Source: Lethocerus indicus | Taxonomy: Eukaryota > Arthropoda > Insecta > Hemiptera > Belostomatidae | Direction: 5' to 3' | DNA: 64,000 nucleotides | NCBI GenBank assembly: GCA_019843655.1 | Contig: JACDQD010000003.1 | Location: forward strand, 26,958,224-27,022,223 | Shown: in pieces, positions 1,450 through 30,165 of the stretch | How positions within the stretch are numbered: position 1 is the first letter of the stretch | Layout: the number at the start of each line of letters is the position of its first letter | Notes under the pieces: model-generated | The model's database searches: none | Told to the model about the DNA's origin: nothing | Seen by the model: the letters and a program-made list of their open reading frames with translations, nothing else | Position numbers and translations under genes: made by a program

Positions 1450-15729
<14,280 letters not shown>

Positions 15730-17697: not shown

Positions 17698-17927
17698 TGC
17701 TGTCACAAGAGAATTAAGCGCCTGCTCTCCAGAATGTTATCATTGTTACATTTTTGGGAGAAAGTTTTCACCTTTAAATGTATATTTTTAAATGGAATAA
17801 GGACAAAATGAACCACAGAGGTAACAATAATATTGTGTGGACTTACAACAATAAACTTTATTTATTCAAAAAGGTCCTCATAATAATGCCACTTAAATTT
17901 AAAATACACTGGATTATTTACACAACT
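17698..17927. repeat. 230-bp direct repeat, left copy
   Basis: Starts TGCTGTCACAAGAGAATTAA and ends TATTTACACAACT. It matches 19013-19242 without a difference that I can see. It contains an AATAAA. The TG start and direct orientation resemble a long terminal repeat, but I see no CA end, primer site, polypurine tract or target duplication. Confidence 0.85.
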
Positions 17928-18041
17928 TGAATTGGCTAAAGGAGAAGAGCTAACTAACTCAAGTATGCTCATTAGATTTTATTCATGTCTTAAATAATAT
18001 GTACAAGTTAAGAAAGGTATAAAAAGAAGGGTTTTAGATAG

Positions 18042-18409
18042 TGGCGATACTGGTGCTGGTAGTTCCATAAATCGCCACCAGGGGGCAGTACTGCACGGGA
18101 AGTGTCGTTACTGGCGCTAGTAGTTCCATAAATCGCCACCAGGGGGCGGTACTGCACGGGAAGTGTCGTTACTGGCGCTAGTAGTTCCTGAAATCGCCAT
18201 AAGGGGGCGGCACTGCACGGGAAGTGTCGATATTGGCGCTAGTAGTTCCATAAATCGCCACCAGGGGGCGGTACTGCACGGGAAGTGTCGTTACTGGCGC
18301 TAGTAGTTCCTGAAATCGCCACCAGGGGGCAGCACTGCACGGGAAGTGGCGATACTGGCGCTAGTAATTCCTGAAATCGCCACCAGGGGGCAGCAATGCA
18401 CGGGAAGTT
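18042..18409 (+). repeat. Six-copy 61-bp minisatellite with CTCF-like cores
   Basis: Exact 61-bp spacing of the core CGCCACCAGGGGGC at 18073, 18134, 18195 (changed to CGCCATAAGGGGGC), 18256, 18317 and 18378. Each unit also has CTGCACGGGAAGTG and, usually, CTGGCGCTAGTAGTTCC. CCACCAGGGGGCAG/CGG is the classic CTCF core. Units differ by only a few bases, indicating recent expansion or homogenisation. Confidence 0.9.
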
Positions 18410-18679
18410 ATCAAATTCTAACCGAGCGACCTCCTTGCATCTCATGTTCTCCTGATACAAATCCTGATACTTTTCCTGACCCGAAATATTATAATATCTA
18501 TGTATACGCCGATTTTTCGTTAATTACATAATAAACGAATCTGTTAAGGCTTGTAATCCATAAATTAGAAGGGAAAATGTATTTTTTTAAATTAAAAATC
18601 AATTTATTCGACTGCAGATTTTACCTATTATTTTGAAAAATATTTTATACGATGCTCGTCGTCTATTTGCCTGTGTCAC

Positions 18680-18812
18680 GGTCTGATGTTGTGGAGAACG
18701 TCCCAAGTGGCAAACAGTGACTACTGAAGATGGCGTGCGGCCGATCAACCTAATAGACCAAACCGGCAGCGAGACAGGAGACAGAAACACCACAAACCTA
18801 CGAGACTACAAC
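18680..18812 (-). repeat. Decayed foldback outer arm
   Basis: CTACTGAAGATGGCG, GCGGCCGA and GACCAAACCGGCAGCGAGA follow in the same order as the outer arm of copy 3 (CTGAAGATGGCGAGCAGCCG, GACCAAACCAGCGAGA), then CACCACAAACC as in the copy 1 end. No array accompanies it. Confidence 0.7.
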
Positions 18813-19012
18813 TATTGTTAATAAAAAATTACAAAACAGTTGAATTTTTACTGCCCTAATTTTTCATCCCTACAATTACTAGTCCGGCCGTGAAACTATT
18901 TAAATTGTCGACAAGCCGTTAATTATAATTATTTTACGAGTTCCATAACGATTAACGCCCCTTAACTTGTGCCTTCCAGTCAGATAATGTGAAGATATCA
19001 CATAAATAAGAT

Positions 19013-19242
19013 TGCTGTCACAAGAGAATTAAGCGCCTGCTCTCCAGAATGTTATCATTGTTACATTTTTGGGAGAAAGTTTTCACCTTTAAATGTATAT
19101 TTTTAAATGGAATAAGGACAAAATGAACCACAGAGGTAACAATAATATTGTGTGGACTTACAACAATAAACTTTATTTATTCAAAAAGGTCCTCATAATA
19201 ATGCCACTTAAATTTAAAATACACTGGATTATTTACACAACT
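19013..19242. repeat. 230-bp direct repeat, right copy
   Basis: Same sequence and orientation as 17698-17927. Flanks differ immediately outside both ends (AAGAT before, ATCGA after, compared with TTTTG and TGAAT at the left copy), so the boundaries are sharp. Confidence 0.85.
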
Positions 19243-20090: not shown

Positions 20091-20591
20091 GTTGGAATAC
20101 CGTAGATTTCATGAATTTCTGTCTCCTCTAGTTGGTTTGGTCTTTTGCTAGAGCGGTTTCGGCTGCTCGCTATCTTCAGTAGCGGTTTCGGCGGTAGCCA
20201 TCTTCGGCTTCCATCTCCAGTTTGGATGTATTTTGGACATCCTCACTGCACTGTCCAGTGACAGTTCACTTGTACGTCTGTATATGTCTTGTTATTGTGC
20301 TTTGGGGGATGTTTGCCTTCTTTGGGTTGGGAAGGATTTTGTTAATCGGCCTATCGTCTTTGTTGGATTATCGGTCAAATATATATTTGATCACACAACT
20401 GGTCACAACTATTAGGTTCTGATTAACAAAATATATGACAGGAAACCTATCTGGTATTGTGTATTTACAATCATAAACGTTTTCCTGTTGATCCAAAATT
20501 AATTGAGAAAAATTTATTTTCAGTAATCAAATTAATCAGTGCAAGTGCACCAAACGAACTTTAGTTGAGTACATTTCCGCACCACTCTCAG

Positions 20592-20628
20592 GGGGCGCTA
20601 AAAAAAACGAACGATTTTTGTGAAACTA
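20592..20628. repeat. Palindrome switch point of foldback copy 2
   Basis: Between GGGGGCGCT and AGCGCCCCC lies A-rich AAAAAAACGAACGATTTTTG plus TGAAACT. Array units flip orientation here. The complement of the same segment is the switch point of copy 3 (27340-27385). Confidence 0.8.
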
Positions 20629-20629
20629 G

Positions 20630-21275
20630 CGCCCCCTGAGAGTGGTGCGGAAATGTACTTAACTAAAGTTCGTTAGGTGCACTTGTACCTAGAAACTAGC
20701 GCCCCCCTGAGTGTGGTGCGGAAATGTACTTAACTAAAGTTCGTTGGATGAACATGTACCGATAAACTAGCGCCCCCTGAGGGTGGTGCGGAAATGTACT
20801 TAACTAAAGTTCGTTAGGTGCACTTGTACCTAGAAACTAGCGCCCCCCTGAGTGTGGTGCGGAAATGTACTTAACTAAAGTTCGTTGGATGATTATGTAC
20901 CGATAAACTAGCGCCCCCTGAGGGTGGTGCGGAAATGTACTTAAAGTTCGTTGGATGAACATGTACCGATAAACTAGCGCCCCTGAGGGTGGTGCGGAAA
21001 TGTATTAACTAAAGTTCGTTAGGTGCACTTGTACAAAACTAGCGCCCCCCTGAGTGTGGTGCGGAAATGTACTTAACTAAAGTTCGTTGGATGAACATGT
21101 ACCGATAAACTAGCGCCCCCTGAGGGTGGTGCGGAAATGTACTTAACTAAAGTTCGTTAGGTGCACTTGTACCAATAAACCAGCGCCCCCCTGAGTGTGG
21201 TGCGGAAATGTACTTAACTAAAGTTCGTTGGATGAACATGTACCGATAAACTAGCGCCCCCTGAGGGTGTGGAAA
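20630..21275 (-). repeat. Tandem array of copy 2, about 10 units
   Basis: Complement of the foldback unit: CTAGCGCCCCCTGAG, GTGGTGCGGAAATGTACTTA and ACTAAAGTTCGTT. Units alternate between a GGTGCACTTGTACC type and a GGATGAACATGTACCG type, so the higher-order period is about 140 bp in places. One unit near 20940 and the last unit are truncated. Confidence 0.85.
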
Positions 21276-21609
21276 TGTACTTAGTCAGGACCTAATAGTT
21301 GTGACCAGTTGTGTGATCAAATATATATTTGACCCCTATATCGATAATCCTCTAAGACTTGAGCTGATTAACAAAATCTCTCTGTACCCAAATAAGGCAA
21401 ACAACATCCCCAAAAACACAATAAGAAGACCCACTTATATAAATAAACATGTTCAAGTGACAGTGATAGTGTCACACTATCCTTGTGGGAGGATGCCCAA
21501 AAAACATCCAAAGTGCTAAAGTGACTAACACCGCTACTGAAGATAGCGGGCAGCCAAAACCGCTCTAGCAAAAGACCAAACCAGGGAGAGGAAACAAACA
21601 TAAGAAATC

Positions 21610-24360: not shown

Positions 24361-24670
24361 TCACGCCGGGGTGGCCGGTGGGTCATCGTCCTGGGGCTGG
24401 GGCGGGGGCTGAGGGGGCGGCATGAGCAGCCTGAGGGCCTTCTCCTCCCAGAGGTGGGCCTGCTGGCGCACCCTCCGCGTGTTGTCGGCGACCAGGGTGT
24501 CCGGGGAGCCGTAGTTGGGCGGGTTGGCGCTCGGGTCGTAGCCCAGCCTGGCCAGCATCGGCGCCAGACTACCCATGTCCCGCACAACGTCCTCCGGCAT
24601 CTCACCCACCCACTTGCTCAGCGCCTCCACGTTCACCGGCTTTATCACCTGGTCCGACGATCTTTCCACC
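24361..24670 (-). CDS. Tpst exon 7 (C-terminal)
   Basis: Acceptor TGGCTAG (minus) ends at 24671; G completes the split Lys, then [38 protein letters not shown] and NPPNYGSPD. The stop TGA is at 24363-24361. After the conserved NTRRV the tail runs through [19 protein letters not shown], which differs from vertebrate tails. Strong G/C bias at third positions. Confidence 0.95.
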
Positions 24671-27600
24671 CTAGCCATCACACACAAGTATAGTTTTTAG
24701 TATTACAACATCCTAAGGCTAGAGTAGCCACCAGATTAGAAATACTTCATTTTTCTCTAATTACAGGAAACCCCCCGATTAGCGTGTTTATTCGATCCTT
24801 AAAATATACCACGTAACTCACAACCGCACTGATCACACCTAATAAGGGATGAAAATAATTATGATGAACCGGAAAAACCTTTAAAAAAAACTTTAAAAAA
24901 CTCGGGCATTCGGAATAAAAGGGGCGATTGAAACTTTATTTTTGGTAGAAAACTTTTCCGATTTCAATTGAGATCAGCAGAACTGTCAGAAGGCTTAAGG
25001 TTCTGTGTTGACTCTCCAATAATTACAAAGGTTTGCGCCGTTAAAATAAGGCGCACTGAGCAAAACTAATGCCGCGCGATATCGAACATTTGAGGCCCAT
25101 TAATTAGAATCGCATTTGACAAAACCGCACTAACAAGGATTTCCTATATGCACACAATATCTTGAGACATTTTTGAAGAAAAACGAATTATATTGGTACT
25201 GACTTTGAGAGGGAGACGCCCCCGGGCTTATTGATGTGGTCCTCGTGGTGGAGGACCGCGTCGTTCCAGGGTATCTCCAGGAACTCGAGTATCCTGGCCA
25301 GCCAAGTGGCAGGGTGCAGCACCAGCTGCTCGTAGTAGACGATCATGCACCTGGCGGACGATCGTTTATAATTTAACTTATTTACTCGTAAATGGCGCAG
25401 GTAAATACACGCAAAGAAACAACGTATCGAATGAAAAAATATGAGAGGACGGTTGAGAAGGACAGAGTACCTGGAGCGGCCGACCCCGACGCACTTGTCG
25501 TACATGACGGTGATGGCTTCGTTCCACTTGGTCATGCACTGCCGGTAGCTAGACAAGTCGAAACCCGTTATCGTAACCTGTACACACATAAAAAAGAGAC
25601 TCAGCTTATATTTTCAATGAGAAACCCGTATACTCGCACAACCTCGAAGAATTGAGCTATTTTCTACCATTAGTACCTTATAAAAGTTAATTTTTAAAAT
25701 TTCCCTCACTATTCTCCAACTCGTCGAATCCAATCAGTGCAGACAGGATATAGTTCCATCGTTTCCAGAGGATATCGTTTTAAACAAGCATTTGTTGGAG
25801 TAGTTGTTGTGGTCTGTTAATAAAAAAGTGTAGAGACGATGATGGGGCCTACCTTTCTTGATATGATGGAGTGTACAGTGGCTCTTCCGTCCCTGACCAT
25901 AAATATGAATTTCGAGTTTGGGAAGAGTGTAGAGAGGTAGTCAGCGCCCTTGAGGGTCAGCGGGTCCTTGTTGCAGAGCCGCTGGGCGGGCTCACCGTGC
26001 AGCGCTATCACCTCAAGGCAAAATGCCGCTATCGCTGCGTCTATCACCTGCAATCAATCATCATATATACATACTGTTTCTCATAGTGTTGCTTAAAAAC
26101 GCGCTACTAATACACTACAGGCTAGGCTAAGCACTTTATCGAACCGAGCGTGCTGCCTCGATCTAAACCCAGGCTATATCTATTTATTAACCTAAGAACC
26201 GAAGAATAGTTTATTTTAGAAGTTTTTCTGCTTACTACTATGGCGAGAAGCCGGAACTGGCCTAGTTCAGGACCAAATAGGCGAGTGCTGATTGAAAAAA
26301 GCAACGGTGATGACACTACATAAACGTCAAATATTACGTACTTACAGACTGCAAACTTGGAGAAGCATTATATTGGTCATAATCATACGGCTTACAAAAT
26401 ACAAAACCTGGTTTCAGACAACATTTACGAAATTATAAAACGAGCTTTGACGATATTTCACTTCCAAATAAATGACAGGAAACCTACCTAGTATTGTGTA
26501 TTTACGATCATACACGTTTTCCTGCCGATCCAAAATGTATTGAAAAAAGTTTCGTTTTTGGAATTTAGTTTATCGGTGCAAGTTCAGCTAATGAACATTA
26601 GTTAAGTACATTTCCGCACCACACTCAGGGGGCGCTAGTTTATCGGTGCAAGTGGACCCTACGAACTTTAGTTAAGTACATTTCCGTACCACACTCAGGG
26701 GGCGCTAGTGGACCCAACGAACTTTAGTTAAGTACATTTCCGCACCACACTCAGGGGGCGCTAGTTTATCGGTGCAAGTGGACCCAACGAACTTTAGTTA
26801 AGTACATTTCCGCACCACACTCAGGGGGCGCTAGTTTATCGGTGCAAGTGGACCCAACGAACTTTAGTTAAGTACATTTCCGTACCACACTCAGGGGGCG
26901 CTAGTGGACCCAACGAACTTTAGTTAAGTACATTTCCGCACCACTCTCAGGGGGCGCTAGTTTATCGGTGCAAGTGGACCCAACGAACTTTAGTTAAGTA
27001 CATTTCCGCACCACACTTAGGGGCGCTAGCGGAGCACTTTAGTTAAGTACATTTCCGCACACTCAGGGCCTAGTTATTACCGACCCAACGAACTTTAGTT
27101 AAGTACATTTCCGCACCACTCAGCAGCTAGGGGCGCTAGTTTATTGGTGCAAGTGGACCCAACGAACTTTAGTTAAGTACATTTCCGCACCACACTCAGG
27201 GGGCGCTAGTTTATCGGTGCAAGTGGACCCAACGAACTTTAGTTAAGTACATTTCCGCACCACACTCAGGGGCGCTAGTTTATCGGTGCAAGTGGACCCA
27301 ACGAACTTTAGTTAAGTACACTTCCGCAACACTCTCAGCTGGGCGCTAGTTTCACAAAAATCGTTCGTTTTTTTAGCGCCCCCCTAAGGGTGGTGCGGAA
27401 ATAATAAAGTTCGTTGGGTCCACTTGCACCGATTAACTTGATTACTGAAAATAAACTTTTCTCAATTAATTTTGGATCAACAGGAAAGCGTTTGTGTGAT
27501 TGTCAATACGCAATACCAGATAGGTTTCCTGTCATATATTTGGAAATCAGAACCTAATAGTTGTGACCAGTTGTGTGATCAAATATATATTTGACCGATA

Positions 27601-30165
27601 ATCCAACAAAGACGATAGGCCAATTAACAAAATCCTTCCCAACCCAAAGAAGGCAAACAACATCCCCCAAAGCACAATAACAAGACATATATACTGAAGA
27701 TGGCGAGCAGCCGAAACCGGTCTAACAAAAGACCAAACCAGCGAGAAGAGAGAGAAGAAACATATGAAATGTACGTGTTGGAATACACCCCACGCAAACC
27801 ACAAAAGAGATATTCTAAAAATAGAGACTTTAAAATAAATTGGGTATTAAACGATATCCTCTGATAGGGGTGTTCGAAAAACCAGTTGTTCGGCGACTCC
27901 GGAGAACACTGAAAGGTATTCCGGACGCTTAACTGGATTTCCGTGAATTTCCGAGATAGGGAAAACGAAGGTTCGGAAACACCGGGAGATGTACGGAGGC
28001 CGCTGTAAAGGAGGCCCGCTTTTACGCTGAAACTTTCCCCGTGTGCGGGGGTGGCAAAAAAAATATGGACGAAAGTTGTCGCTGACAAAATCAATAGGCC
28101 CCACTACATAACCGAACCATCTTCCGTTTAAAACTTGGCAGATTTTGCCCTGGAATTTAGCGTTATATCCGGCTCAAAGAAAAGCCACCGACGGGAAGGG
28201 AATGTATTGAAGGCGTTGGAATAGTTGGGCATTTGTTGATGCTCTTGTTGAGGGAAGAGAGGAGGAGAGAGAGATAAGGAGAGCTCGTTCGGTGCATAGG
28301 ACGTAGCTCCGTGTTCCCGTTAGGAAAACAGTAATTGAAATTATCTGGTGTAACGCCGATACCGGAGATAAATTTGTTCTAGGATACCTCGCTGTTCACT
28401 CCGGCTTCGTTTAGCCTCATACTTTCTTTTTTCGATTTCACCCAATGAGATCTCATCTGCAGTATCCGGGGTATCACTCTCGTTTCTTGGCCACACCTGT
28501 AACCGGCAAATGGACTAACTTAAGTAGCATGGAGTTACAAATAAGGCTCATAATAAACAATAACACAACATATATTTACATATATTTCTTGTTCAACTGT
28601 GATTTCTTCTAAAGCAATTATTGCATAGCATTTTTTCCCACAAGCGTGTGTTCAATACGATTTAAATAGTTCGAGCAAGAATTATATACTTGTATTTAAA
28701 GTATATAAGTGGTCAATACAAGAAAAGCTATAGTAATCGGAAAACTACCAGAATTGTGAATTGCGGGATGTAAGGGACTACGGCCAGTTTACTTAAAATT
28801 TCACAATAGTTTAATTATTGGAACTATCAAATATTTTTTGACGCTATAGAATGGCCTAAACCAGTAGGTTGGGTGTGCATCTTCCCGGACTAGGCATACG
28901 AACAGACATACTAATTAGTTACGCAAAATACGAATTTTGTTTTACAGCGACAAAGATACATACGTCATTGTTTCCTCCCTTTGTTTCTAGTTCAATAAAG
29001 TACGATATAAATAAATTTAATCCGTCTGAAACTAGACTAAATGTCGATTACCTGACGTCCGGATGGGCGTCGAGCATGGCCCGCATCAGGGTCGTACCCG
29101 ACCGGGGGACGCCCCCGATGAAGATCAACGGCATCATCCTGTCATAGTGGTACACTTTGTTATCCTTTCCGACTACATATTTCTGAAAAACAGAATAACA
29201 ACGCTCAACATTAAGCGTACACATAAAAAAATATACAATTTGATGAAATGGAGAAAGTAGGGTTATTCTTTTCAATGGGTTAAATACTTTCATATTTTGT
29301 TATCAAATACGTTTACCATTGGGCGGGTTAATAATAACACAATCGCTTCATATACAAAAGCATTCATGAGAAAAGTATTTTGTAATCAATGGGACAACGA
29401 AGTATCGAAATTATGCTATTATCGAGCGTCTATTCAAAAATCCAATTAAAACTTTTCAGGTAAACTAATAATGCTGTGATTTGATCACGCCGCGATTGTT
29501 GTTTAGCGCGAGTTGCAGGAGCTCGTTTGCTTCAAATTATCGTTCGCTTGTTTAATATAACAAATATTAATTTTCAATTTTTCATTAATAAAATTAATAA
29601 TAGTACAAGGTCGAGGAAAGTTTTGATTGAATGTGTTCAATAAATGATTATCGGGGGGTGGAGTTTGGAGTTTGTAGTAGCCAACTCTTTGATATTTGAT
29701 ATGTCTATGTTAATGGTGCTTTATATTGCAAGGGGAATAGAATTATTATATTATAGAATAGAATTCTGTAGAAAAAAAATTGTTTTACAGACGGCCAACA
29801 AACATTTACACTGCATACAACCAAACGGCACATTGATGACAGTGAAATTTGAATGAGAAGGTTTGAGGTATAACTTCAAATTAGACTTATCAATTTTGAT
29901 ATATTTATTATCTCATAATAGAGTTGTATCTAAAAAGGAAACTGTGCTGTGAGAAAATACACTGGTGAGATTGTTGGGCATGTTGGCCAGACAATAGTTC
30001 TCAGTTTATACTGGCTAGACACTTTCATAGTTGATGACTTACCTCTTTGGGTAGCATGAGAGGTCCGTTGTTGTAAACGCCGCAGATCTGTATCTTGTAG
30101 GTGACTAACAGGAAGACTGATAAAGCGGCCACGACCACTAACCACCTCCGCCCACCTCTGCTCAT
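24361..30165 (-). CDS. Tyrosylprotein sulfotransferase (whole gene, 7 coding exons)
   Basis: Type II Golgi enzyme that moves sulfate from PAPS to tyrosines of secreted and membrane proteins. Exons (minus): 30165-30043, 29182-29052, 28496-28388, 26047-25853, 25577-25471, 25350-25204, 24670-24361; the sum is 1122 nt, 373 aa (human TPST1 370, TPST2 377). All joins keep phase. Order: a short cytosolic tail MSRGGRR, a membrane anchor about 8-23, stem, 5'-phosphosulfate loop GGVPRSGTT (64-72), catalytic Glu in CGQETR (E89), CNKDP (146-150), 3'-phosphate motif [11 protein letters not shown] (171-181), [10 protein letters not shown] (226-235), and the conserved [10 protein letters not shown] (275-284). 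The Cys of CGQET and of LCNKDP can form the family disulfide. The C-terminal tail is Pro/Gln/Asp-rich. Foldback copy 3 lies in the 28387-26048 intron. Likely the Drosophila Tango13 orthologue. Confidence 0.97.
24671..25203 (-). other. Tpst intron 6
   Basis: 533 bp. Donor AA|GTCAGT, acceptor CTAG. No other feature seen. Confidence 0.8.
25204..25350 (-). CDS. Tpst exon 6
   Basis: Acceptor CGTCCGCCAG (minus) ends at 25351; AG+G makes Arg, then [37 protein letters not shown] and KPGGVSLS. 147 nt, phase 2 in and phase 2 out. YEQLVLHP and VLHHED are invariant blocks of the family. Confidence 0.96.
25471..25577 (-). CDS. Tpst exon 5
   Basis: Acceptor TGTGTACAG; encodes [35 protein letters not shown]. 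Donor CCAG|GTACTC, phase 2 out. The Cys pair flanking VGVGRSR (C215 and C223) corresponds to the second disulfide of human TPST2. Confidence 0.96.
25853..26047 (-). CDS. Tpst exon 4
   Basis: 195 nt, phase 0 both ends. Encodes [40 protein letters not shown] and [17 protein letters not shown]. It carries the 3'-phosphate-binding Arg and Ser of the PAPS site and the Lys of CNKDP. Acceptor ATTGCAG, donor AAG|GTAGGC. Confidence 0.97.
26225..26290 (-). repeat. Decayed foldback outer arm
   Basis: CTATGGCGAGAAGCCGGAAC and AGGACCAAATAGGCGAG follow the order of the copy 3 outer arm (GATGGCGAGCAGCCGAAACC, AGACCAAACCAGCGAG). Heavily diverged, so older than copies 2 and 3. Confidence 0.5.
26590..27345 (+). 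repeat. Tandem array of copy 3, about 12 units
   Basis: Units of about 70 bp: GGTGCAAGTGGACCCAACGA, ACTTTAGTTAAGTACATTTC, CGCACCACACTCAGGGGGCG and CTAGTTTATC. Two units lack the TTTATCGGTGCAA part, and two near 27030-27130 are scrambled. Units here are more alike than in copy 1. Confidence 0.88.
27340..27385. repeat. Palindrome switch point of foldback copy 3
   Basis: GCGCTAGTTTCACAAAAATC then GTTCGTTTTTTTAGCGCCCC: the complement of the copy 2 switch segment. Units to the right face the opposite way. Confidence 0.8.
28388..28496 (-). CDS. Tpst exon 3 (short, 109 nt)
   Basis: Found by looking for the missing catalytic segment. Acceptor ACAG (minus) ends at 28497; AG+G makes Arg, then [36 protein letters not shown], then donor GAG|GTATCC. 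It supplies the catalytic Glu (E89) and the Arg residues of TRVIPR. Vertebrate enzymes have CGEETR; here the first Glu is Gln, as I recall from other insects, while the catalytic second Glu is kept. Confidence 0.95.
28497..29051 (-). other. Tpst intron 2
   Basis: 555 bp, donor CAG|GTAATC. Nothing else recognised. Confidence 0.8.
29052..29182 (-). CDS. Tpst exon 2
   Basis: Acceptor CTGTTTTTCAG ends at 29183. Encodes [37 protein letters not shown] and [16 protein letters not shown] is the PAPS 5'-phosphosulfate-binding loop. Phase 0 in, phase 2 out. The ORF extends upstream of the acceptor, but that part is intron. Confidence 0.97.
29183..30042 (-). other. Tpst intron 1
   Basis: 860 bp, AT-rich; donor GAG|GTAAGT. 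Small ORFs on both strands are chance. Confidence 0.8.

Follow-up and report, generated by a model that had tools for sequence, protein, structure and literature searches.

The systems closest to the locus described here are the two-part CTCF site of vertebrates and a few natural or designed arrays of insulator-protein sites. In vertebrates, a core motif is combined with an upstream motif (PMC12885311, PMC11194110, PMC5504073), and the distance between the core and AGTTCC is equal in the repeat of the bug. The upstream motif is contacted by zinc fingers 9-11, occurs in about 13-15 % of human sites and is required for insulation at IL3; in the same paper, it is said not to be conserved in insects, on the basis of Drosophila data (PMC12885311). 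In three experimental CTCF sites, AGT likewise lies 14 nt before CCA (PMC11194110). A difference concerns the 5' triplet, which is TGC in the human sites printed there and AGT in family A, the repeat family of the bug array.

Among insects, the gypsy insulator of Drosophila comes closest as a precedent: this part of a retrotransposon packs 12 Su(Hw) sites into 340 bp (PMC2374998). Like the bug repeat, it is a compact array of insulator-protein sites in a mobile element, the sites in the present case being candidate CTCF sites. It differs in the protein, Su(Hw), and in the class of the element. Several repeat families of the bug contain the site, which is also present in foldbacks and in tandem copies of a unit of about 292 bp. 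CTCF motifs have likewise been spread by repeats in mammals, but the mammalian cases cited there are retrotransposed, whereas the bug motif is the repeat unit of a minisatellite (PMC7520972, PMC5504073).

Clustered CTCF sites add up in mouse cells (PMC10497529), and designed arrays of such sites block enhancers in human cells (PMC7200164). One of these, the synthetic insulator STITCH, resembles the bug array, with its predicted sites, in being a compact array of CTCF sites, but it was designed with two divergent sets and its function was assayed, whereas the bug array is natural, points one way and is known from sequence (PMC7200164). Clustered predicted CTCF sites in an insect are also described for the Antp-Ubx boundary of a butterfly, where eight sites within 5 kb lie at a measured contact boundary and do not form a repeat family (PMC10945631). 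Among the titles and beginnings of abstracts listed from the open-licence literature, none deals with CTCF-site minisatellites in insects, which is weak evidence of absence, and a search there for foldback transposons together with CTCF found no paper.

The 61-bp array and its cores

The window, i.e. the whole stretch of 64,000 nucleotides that was analysed, contains a tandem array of family A for which the preliminary description reported six 61-bp units, five with an intact CTCF-like core and one with a mutated core. Tandem Repeats Finder recovered this array (period 61, 6.0 copies, 91 % matches), with the previously given ends off by 2 bases on the left and by 1 on the right (Table 1). A scan of the window located CCACCAGGGGGC without mismatches starting at 18075, 18136, 18258, 18319 and 18380, and with two mismatches at 18197, where it reads CCATAAGGGGGC. 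CG precedes the core in all six units, and CGCCACCAGGGGGC is unbroken at a spacing of 61 bp in five of them, its counterpart in unit 3 being CGCCATAAGGGGGC. The array supplies 6 of the 11 matches to CCACCAGGGGGC with at most two mismatches in the window, compared to a mean of 1.58 and a maximum of 6 in 100 shuffled windows.

Five cores score 26.6-27.7 of 30.3 bits and the core of unit 3 scores 19.2 bits on MA0139.1, a CTCF matrix with column sums of 908-913, the vertebrate origin of which weakens the case for CTCF. The runner-up sites on this matrix elsewhere in the window reach 15.7 bits. These near-maximal scores, together with a second motif at the vertebrate distance and a CTCF gene in the genome, make the CTCF match stronger than had been claimed. 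The upstream AGTTCC, the copies throughout the genome and three further arrays of the window that have a weaker CTCAGGGGGCGCTAG core had been missed.

Table 1. Positions of the features in the window
Feature	Position	Strand	Basis and remarks
Phactr, three RPEL exons and C-terminal exon	13808..15409	+	query search
Left 230-bp perfect direct repeat	17698..17927	+	genome search
Insert holding the family-A fragment	17928..19012		17927-18846 and 18844-18982 match the cluster at C3:33.79-33.86 Mb
Dispersed repeat of family A, fragment with left flank, array and right tail	17992..18696	+	blastn to loci L009-L028; flank comparison
61-bp tandem array, six units, family A	18040..18408	+	Tandem Repeats Finder; single orientation throughout
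Unit 1	18061..18090	+	AGTTCC at 18061-18066, 8-nt spacer, core CCACCAGGGGGC; 19-mer 18072-18090, 26.6 bits
Unit 2	18122..18151	+	both site halves present; core 27.7 bits
Unit 3	18183..18212	+	AGTTCC retained; core altered to CCATAAGGGGGC, 19.2 bits
Unit 4	18244..18273	+	both site halves present; core 27.7 bits
Unit 5	18305..18334	+	both site halves present; core 27.0 bits
Unit 6	18366..18395	+	core unbroken, 27.0 bits; AATTCC in place of the upstream motif
Right 230-bp perfect direct repeat	19013..19242	+	genome search
TPST exons	24469..29167	-	query search; Sulfotransfer_3 domain

The array is best interpreted as one member of a minisatellite family that is or once was mobile, appears to be built on a two-part CTCF site and is probably bound by the CTCF of the host, with a probability of roughly two in three. 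This interpretation builds on the sequence itself, the many arrays and occasional foldbacks in which it is dispersed, the constant distance of 14 nt, the fact that both motifs together are better conserved than the rest of the unit, and the CTCF gene of the host.

Dispersal of the repeat

The genome searches covered 426.8 Mb in 209 contigs, and all counts are inflated by duplicate contigs, such as C133, 4,001 bp of which are identical to the window. The exact 14-mer core has 300 matches, compared to 3 for the reversed control, and a spacing of 61 bp is common among the first 100 of these matches listed. Twenty places drawn from these first 100, all on contigs C1-C3, were fetched (L009-L028). 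Their family-A copies have the left flank, the array and the right tail in common to varying extents; at L016, the homology covers about 960 bp to the left and about 650 bp to the right of the array, about 2.1 kb in total. Fetched loci with any units hold between 1 and 54 of them (54 at L013), or between 2 and 54 if both strands are counted. Being a piece of a dispersed repeat, the array is not private to the interval between Phactr and TPST. Since families A and C have segments of 34-56 bp in common, they may be one superfamily.

Drosophila foldback transposons have long inverted arms built of tandem subrepeats. This shape is found in only 4 of the 20 fetched loci (L010, L011, L017 and L019), which are palindromes with arrays in both arms, and the window copy does not show it. 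The repeat is not classed as a foldback transposon. Mobile amplification of the minisatellite would have multiplied the predicted CTCF sites, with the foldback copies carrying inverted sets of them, and the sites may have been kept either by binding or by homogenisation and amplification.

The subterminal repeats of some DNA transposons are binding sites of their transposase. The conserved blocks could accordingly be sites for the transposase of the element itself or for another zinc-finger protein of the host, with an incidental likeness to CTCF sites. The location of the arrays in dispersed repeats, the four foldbacks with arrays in their arms and a related but poor core in the family B arrays of the window (8.2-15.7 bits for the best core per array) are in line with this, as repeat-borne copies could mark a transposase or shared descent. 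Both motifs, their spacing and the many tolerated variants of the core fit CTCF instead, and this alternative is considered unlikely.

Two further arrangements were observed outside the window. A tandem cluster at C3:33.785-33.864 Mb (L027, L028) combines a 164-bp repeat with a larger unit of about 4.7-4.8 kb. Two of these large units were seen in L028, each with a 61-bp array, which makes the cluster somewhat macrosatellite-like with CTCF-like sites. At C1:11120688-11124791, units of about 292 bp are repeated in tandem, each with one two-part CTCF-like site, and at least 14 sites are present.

The two-part site, its conservation and the CTCF of the bug

In the 20 loci, which were selected by their core, AGTTC starts exactly 14 nt upstream of 149 of the 156 CCRCYAGRKGGC cores. 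Up to a distance of 40, AGTTC has no other position relative to these 156 cores. In the window, this holds for 4 of 5 cores. Eight nucleotides separate the end of AGTTCC from the core, and the site consists of AGTTC, mostly after T, a 9-nt spacer and CCRCYAGRKGGC. The pattern AGTTC-N9-CCRCYAGRKGGC has 1,282 matches in the genome, duplicate contigs included, compared to 0 for the reversed pattern. The first 100 of these sites listed form 33 clusters on C1 between 2.5 and 11.6 Mb, 13 of which are single sites, and the steps among them include 57, 61, 63 and about 292 bp.

A genome scan with CCASYAGRKGGCGC, in which the upstream bases are left open, yielded 35 matches at 25 distinct places, compared to 9 matches for the reversed pattern. 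AGTT lies at a distance of 14 in 10 of these places, and at 7, 18 and 19 in 1, 3 and 1 of them, respectively. All 10 places with AGTT at 14 are among the 15 with CCAC[CT]AG, and the upstream motif is absent from all 10 places with CCAG[CT]AG. Fourteen of the 25 places were followed as L030-L043, namely every one of the 10 places that have AGTT at 14, together with 4 of the other 15. The motif is found at 14 in 20 of 30 and in 44 of 55 cases in this set, counts that lean towards the motif because of the selection, while the 10 of 25 places and the 149 of 156 cores were not selected for it. A binomial p for the 25 places was set aside, because it counts related repeats as if they were independent. 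Most of the places L030-L043 fall in other repeats, among the matches listed. L030 is a lone two-part site (with AGTTT) without a match to the other fetched loci; L041 also matches none of these and lacks the upstream motif, as does L043, which adjoins a repeat. An independent proof of the two-part site from single-copy places was abandoned, because these three loci are too few to decide.

At L035, AGTTC lies at 14 for all nine matrix matches, which were found without demanding this distance. The steps from site to site, taken from sites found with the distance-demanding pattern, are 40, 40, 63, 51, 65, 75, 52 and 50. The nine two-part sites at positions 545-1008 of this locus (C3:33264500-33266100) point in the same direction at uneven steps and a constant distance between AGTTC and the core. 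At positions 458-513 of L039 (C11:16887700-16888800), two two-part sites stand face to face with about 18 bp between their core 19-mers.

The fetched sites lie mostly in repeats related by descent, so the copies are not independent and the figures of the following comparisons are not clean probabilities. Of the 20 loci, all but L023 contributed units, and in these and the units of the window, 198 in total, the conserved blocks are at unit positions 13-27 (GGCGCTAGTAGTTCC) and 31-47 (core). For the shift test, one unit with an exact core was removed per locus, retaining 178 of the 198. The mask combining the core and AGTTCC has the lowest divergence of all 61 circular shifts, with 0.051 inside and 0.177 outside (0.074 and 0.167 when weighted by locus). 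For the core alone, 6 of the 61 shifts are equal or better (4 when weighted by locus), and for AGTTCC alone 3 of 61 with either weighting. Among 21 variant cores, the mean loss of matrix score is below that of random changes, the observed mean being reached in 1 of 400 simulations; several variants are nevertheless no or little better than random changes, including the frequent or recurrent CCACCAGGGGCA and CCACCAGGGAGC. In 30 units less than 75 % alike, from the set leaning towards the motif, conservation is 0.70-0.93 in the TAGTTC columns -15 to -10 and 0.33-0.60 in the spacer columns -9 to -3.

These modest positional tests leave room for a neutral minisatellite, in which the concerted evolution of one old unit would explain the likeness of the copies without any binding. 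Tandem arrays homogenise, as the 91 % matches of the window units illustrate. However, in arrays with differing steps (57, 61, 63 and about 292 bp among the first 100 sites listed), conservation is centred on the two blocks, which keep the CTCF distance, and a purely neutral origin is regarded as quite improbable.

The preliminary description had named the lack of a CTCF gene in the species as a point that would count against its interpretation. A CTCF gene is present on C10, with exons at C10:13314125-13320646 that are 65-97 % identical to Ranatra CTCF P0354, and 11 zinc fingers were counted by eye. CTCF is present in almost all arthropod transcript sets examined in one survey (PMC5094011).

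The fingers were compared with human CTCF by eye at the helix positions -1, 2, 3 and 6, and the proteins of Ranatra (a partial record), Rhodnius and Cimex were also read. Finger 3 is identical to the human one at all four positions, finger 4 differs at position 6 (R to N) and finger 5 at position 2 only (Y to F). In finger 6, three of four positions are changed and Q-1 is retained, while finger 7 has two mild changes, S2T and V6I. Finger 9 retains R2 and H3, finger 10 retains -1, 2 and 3, and finger 11 retains only R6, with three of four positions changed. The changes in fingers 4, 6 and 11 weigh against the interpretation of the units as CTCF sites. At position 6 of finger 4, N is found in Lethocerus, Ranatra, Rhodnius and Cimex, and R in human CTCF and 10 other proteins compared by eye.

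Finger 10 is presumed to face AGT, and finger 11 the 5' triplet. With this assignment, the triplet AGT of family A, in place of the human TGC, fits the diverged finger 11, and the retained and changed parts of the motif seem to agree with the retained and changed fingers. The CTCF of the bug would bind the units through fingers 3-7 at the core and fingers 9-10 at AGTTC.

A broader proposal is more tentative and is given somewhat less than even odds. It holds that the CTCF of the bug may read the two-part site as in vertebrates (TAGTTC-N9-CCRCYAGRKGGCGC), that a superfamily of mobile minisatellites may have multiplied this site to more than 1,000 copies, and that these repeats could represent a large share of the strong CTCF sites, acting either as loop anchors that are scattered and often inverted or as a CTCF sink. 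Mobile DNA may have spread chromosome-folding signals through the genome of this insect. If CTCF binds the arrays, they would be an insect case of mobile DNA spreading ready-made clusters of CTCF sites, parallel to that of gypsy and Su(Hw). They would also bear on two questions, namely whether the two-part site is older than the vertebrates and whether the CTCF sites of insects are able to anchor loops. With one orientation at the window locus, inverted sets elsewhere and between 1 and 54 units per fetched locus that has any, the arrays are natural test pieces.

The interval between Phactr and TPST

Exon searches placed Phactr and TPST in convergent orientation around the array, in agreement with the preliminary description. 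For the joined TPST exons, the match amounts to 92 % with Ranatra chinensis and to 81-82 % with further named Heteroptera, a comparison that places the source species near Ranatra within the Heteroptera, as a true bug and probably a water bug.

Because the six predicted sites point one way, the array could stop cohesin that extrudes from one side, and it might, as a speculation, block extrusion or enhancers between the two genes. A strong boundary specific to this interval had been suggested, and such a boundary, kept by selection, would be consistent with an intergenic array of six sites in a single direction between convergent genes and with the enhancer blocking by designed CTCF-site arrays in human cells (PMC7200164). 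The analysis does not support this suggestion, since the array belongs, as a fragment, to a dispersed repeat whose core and arrays are found at many other places, and the insert around it resembles a cluster on the same contig. Segments of 17927-18982 match this cluster (C3:33.79-33.86 Mb) at 93-97 %, including the array, and at 99-100 % over 18844-18982; the flanks of the array alone match at 98 %. This likeness of 93-100 %, together with the perfect 230-bp repeats on both sides, argues for a recent arrival rather than a long-kept local boundary, which is accordingly rated as quite unlikely, on a par with the neutral origin discussed above. The interpretation of the array as a mobile family of predicted CTCF sites is thereby strengthened, and that of a putative boundary of this locus, which has weak support, is weakened.

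A genome search with the 230-bp direct repeat found two copies at the locus and two on contig C133, and no other locus apart from this duplicate contig. The repeats were rejected as LTRs owing to this restriction and because inspection by eye showed no target duplication. They are therefore more likely the result of a duplication at the locus or of a repair event.

Three further arrays with 56/70-bp units and CTCAGGGGGCGCTAG cores (family B) lie in the window at 3897-4836, 20532-21283 and 26566-27400. They are not claimed as CTCF arrays in view of their core scores given above, and TTCC lies 10 nt, not 12, upstream of CAGGGG in 19 of 21 matched units. The arrays at 20532-21283 and 26566-27400 turn around a AAAAAACGAACGATTTTTGTGAAAC loop in the style of a foldback, and the latter sits inside an intron of TPST.
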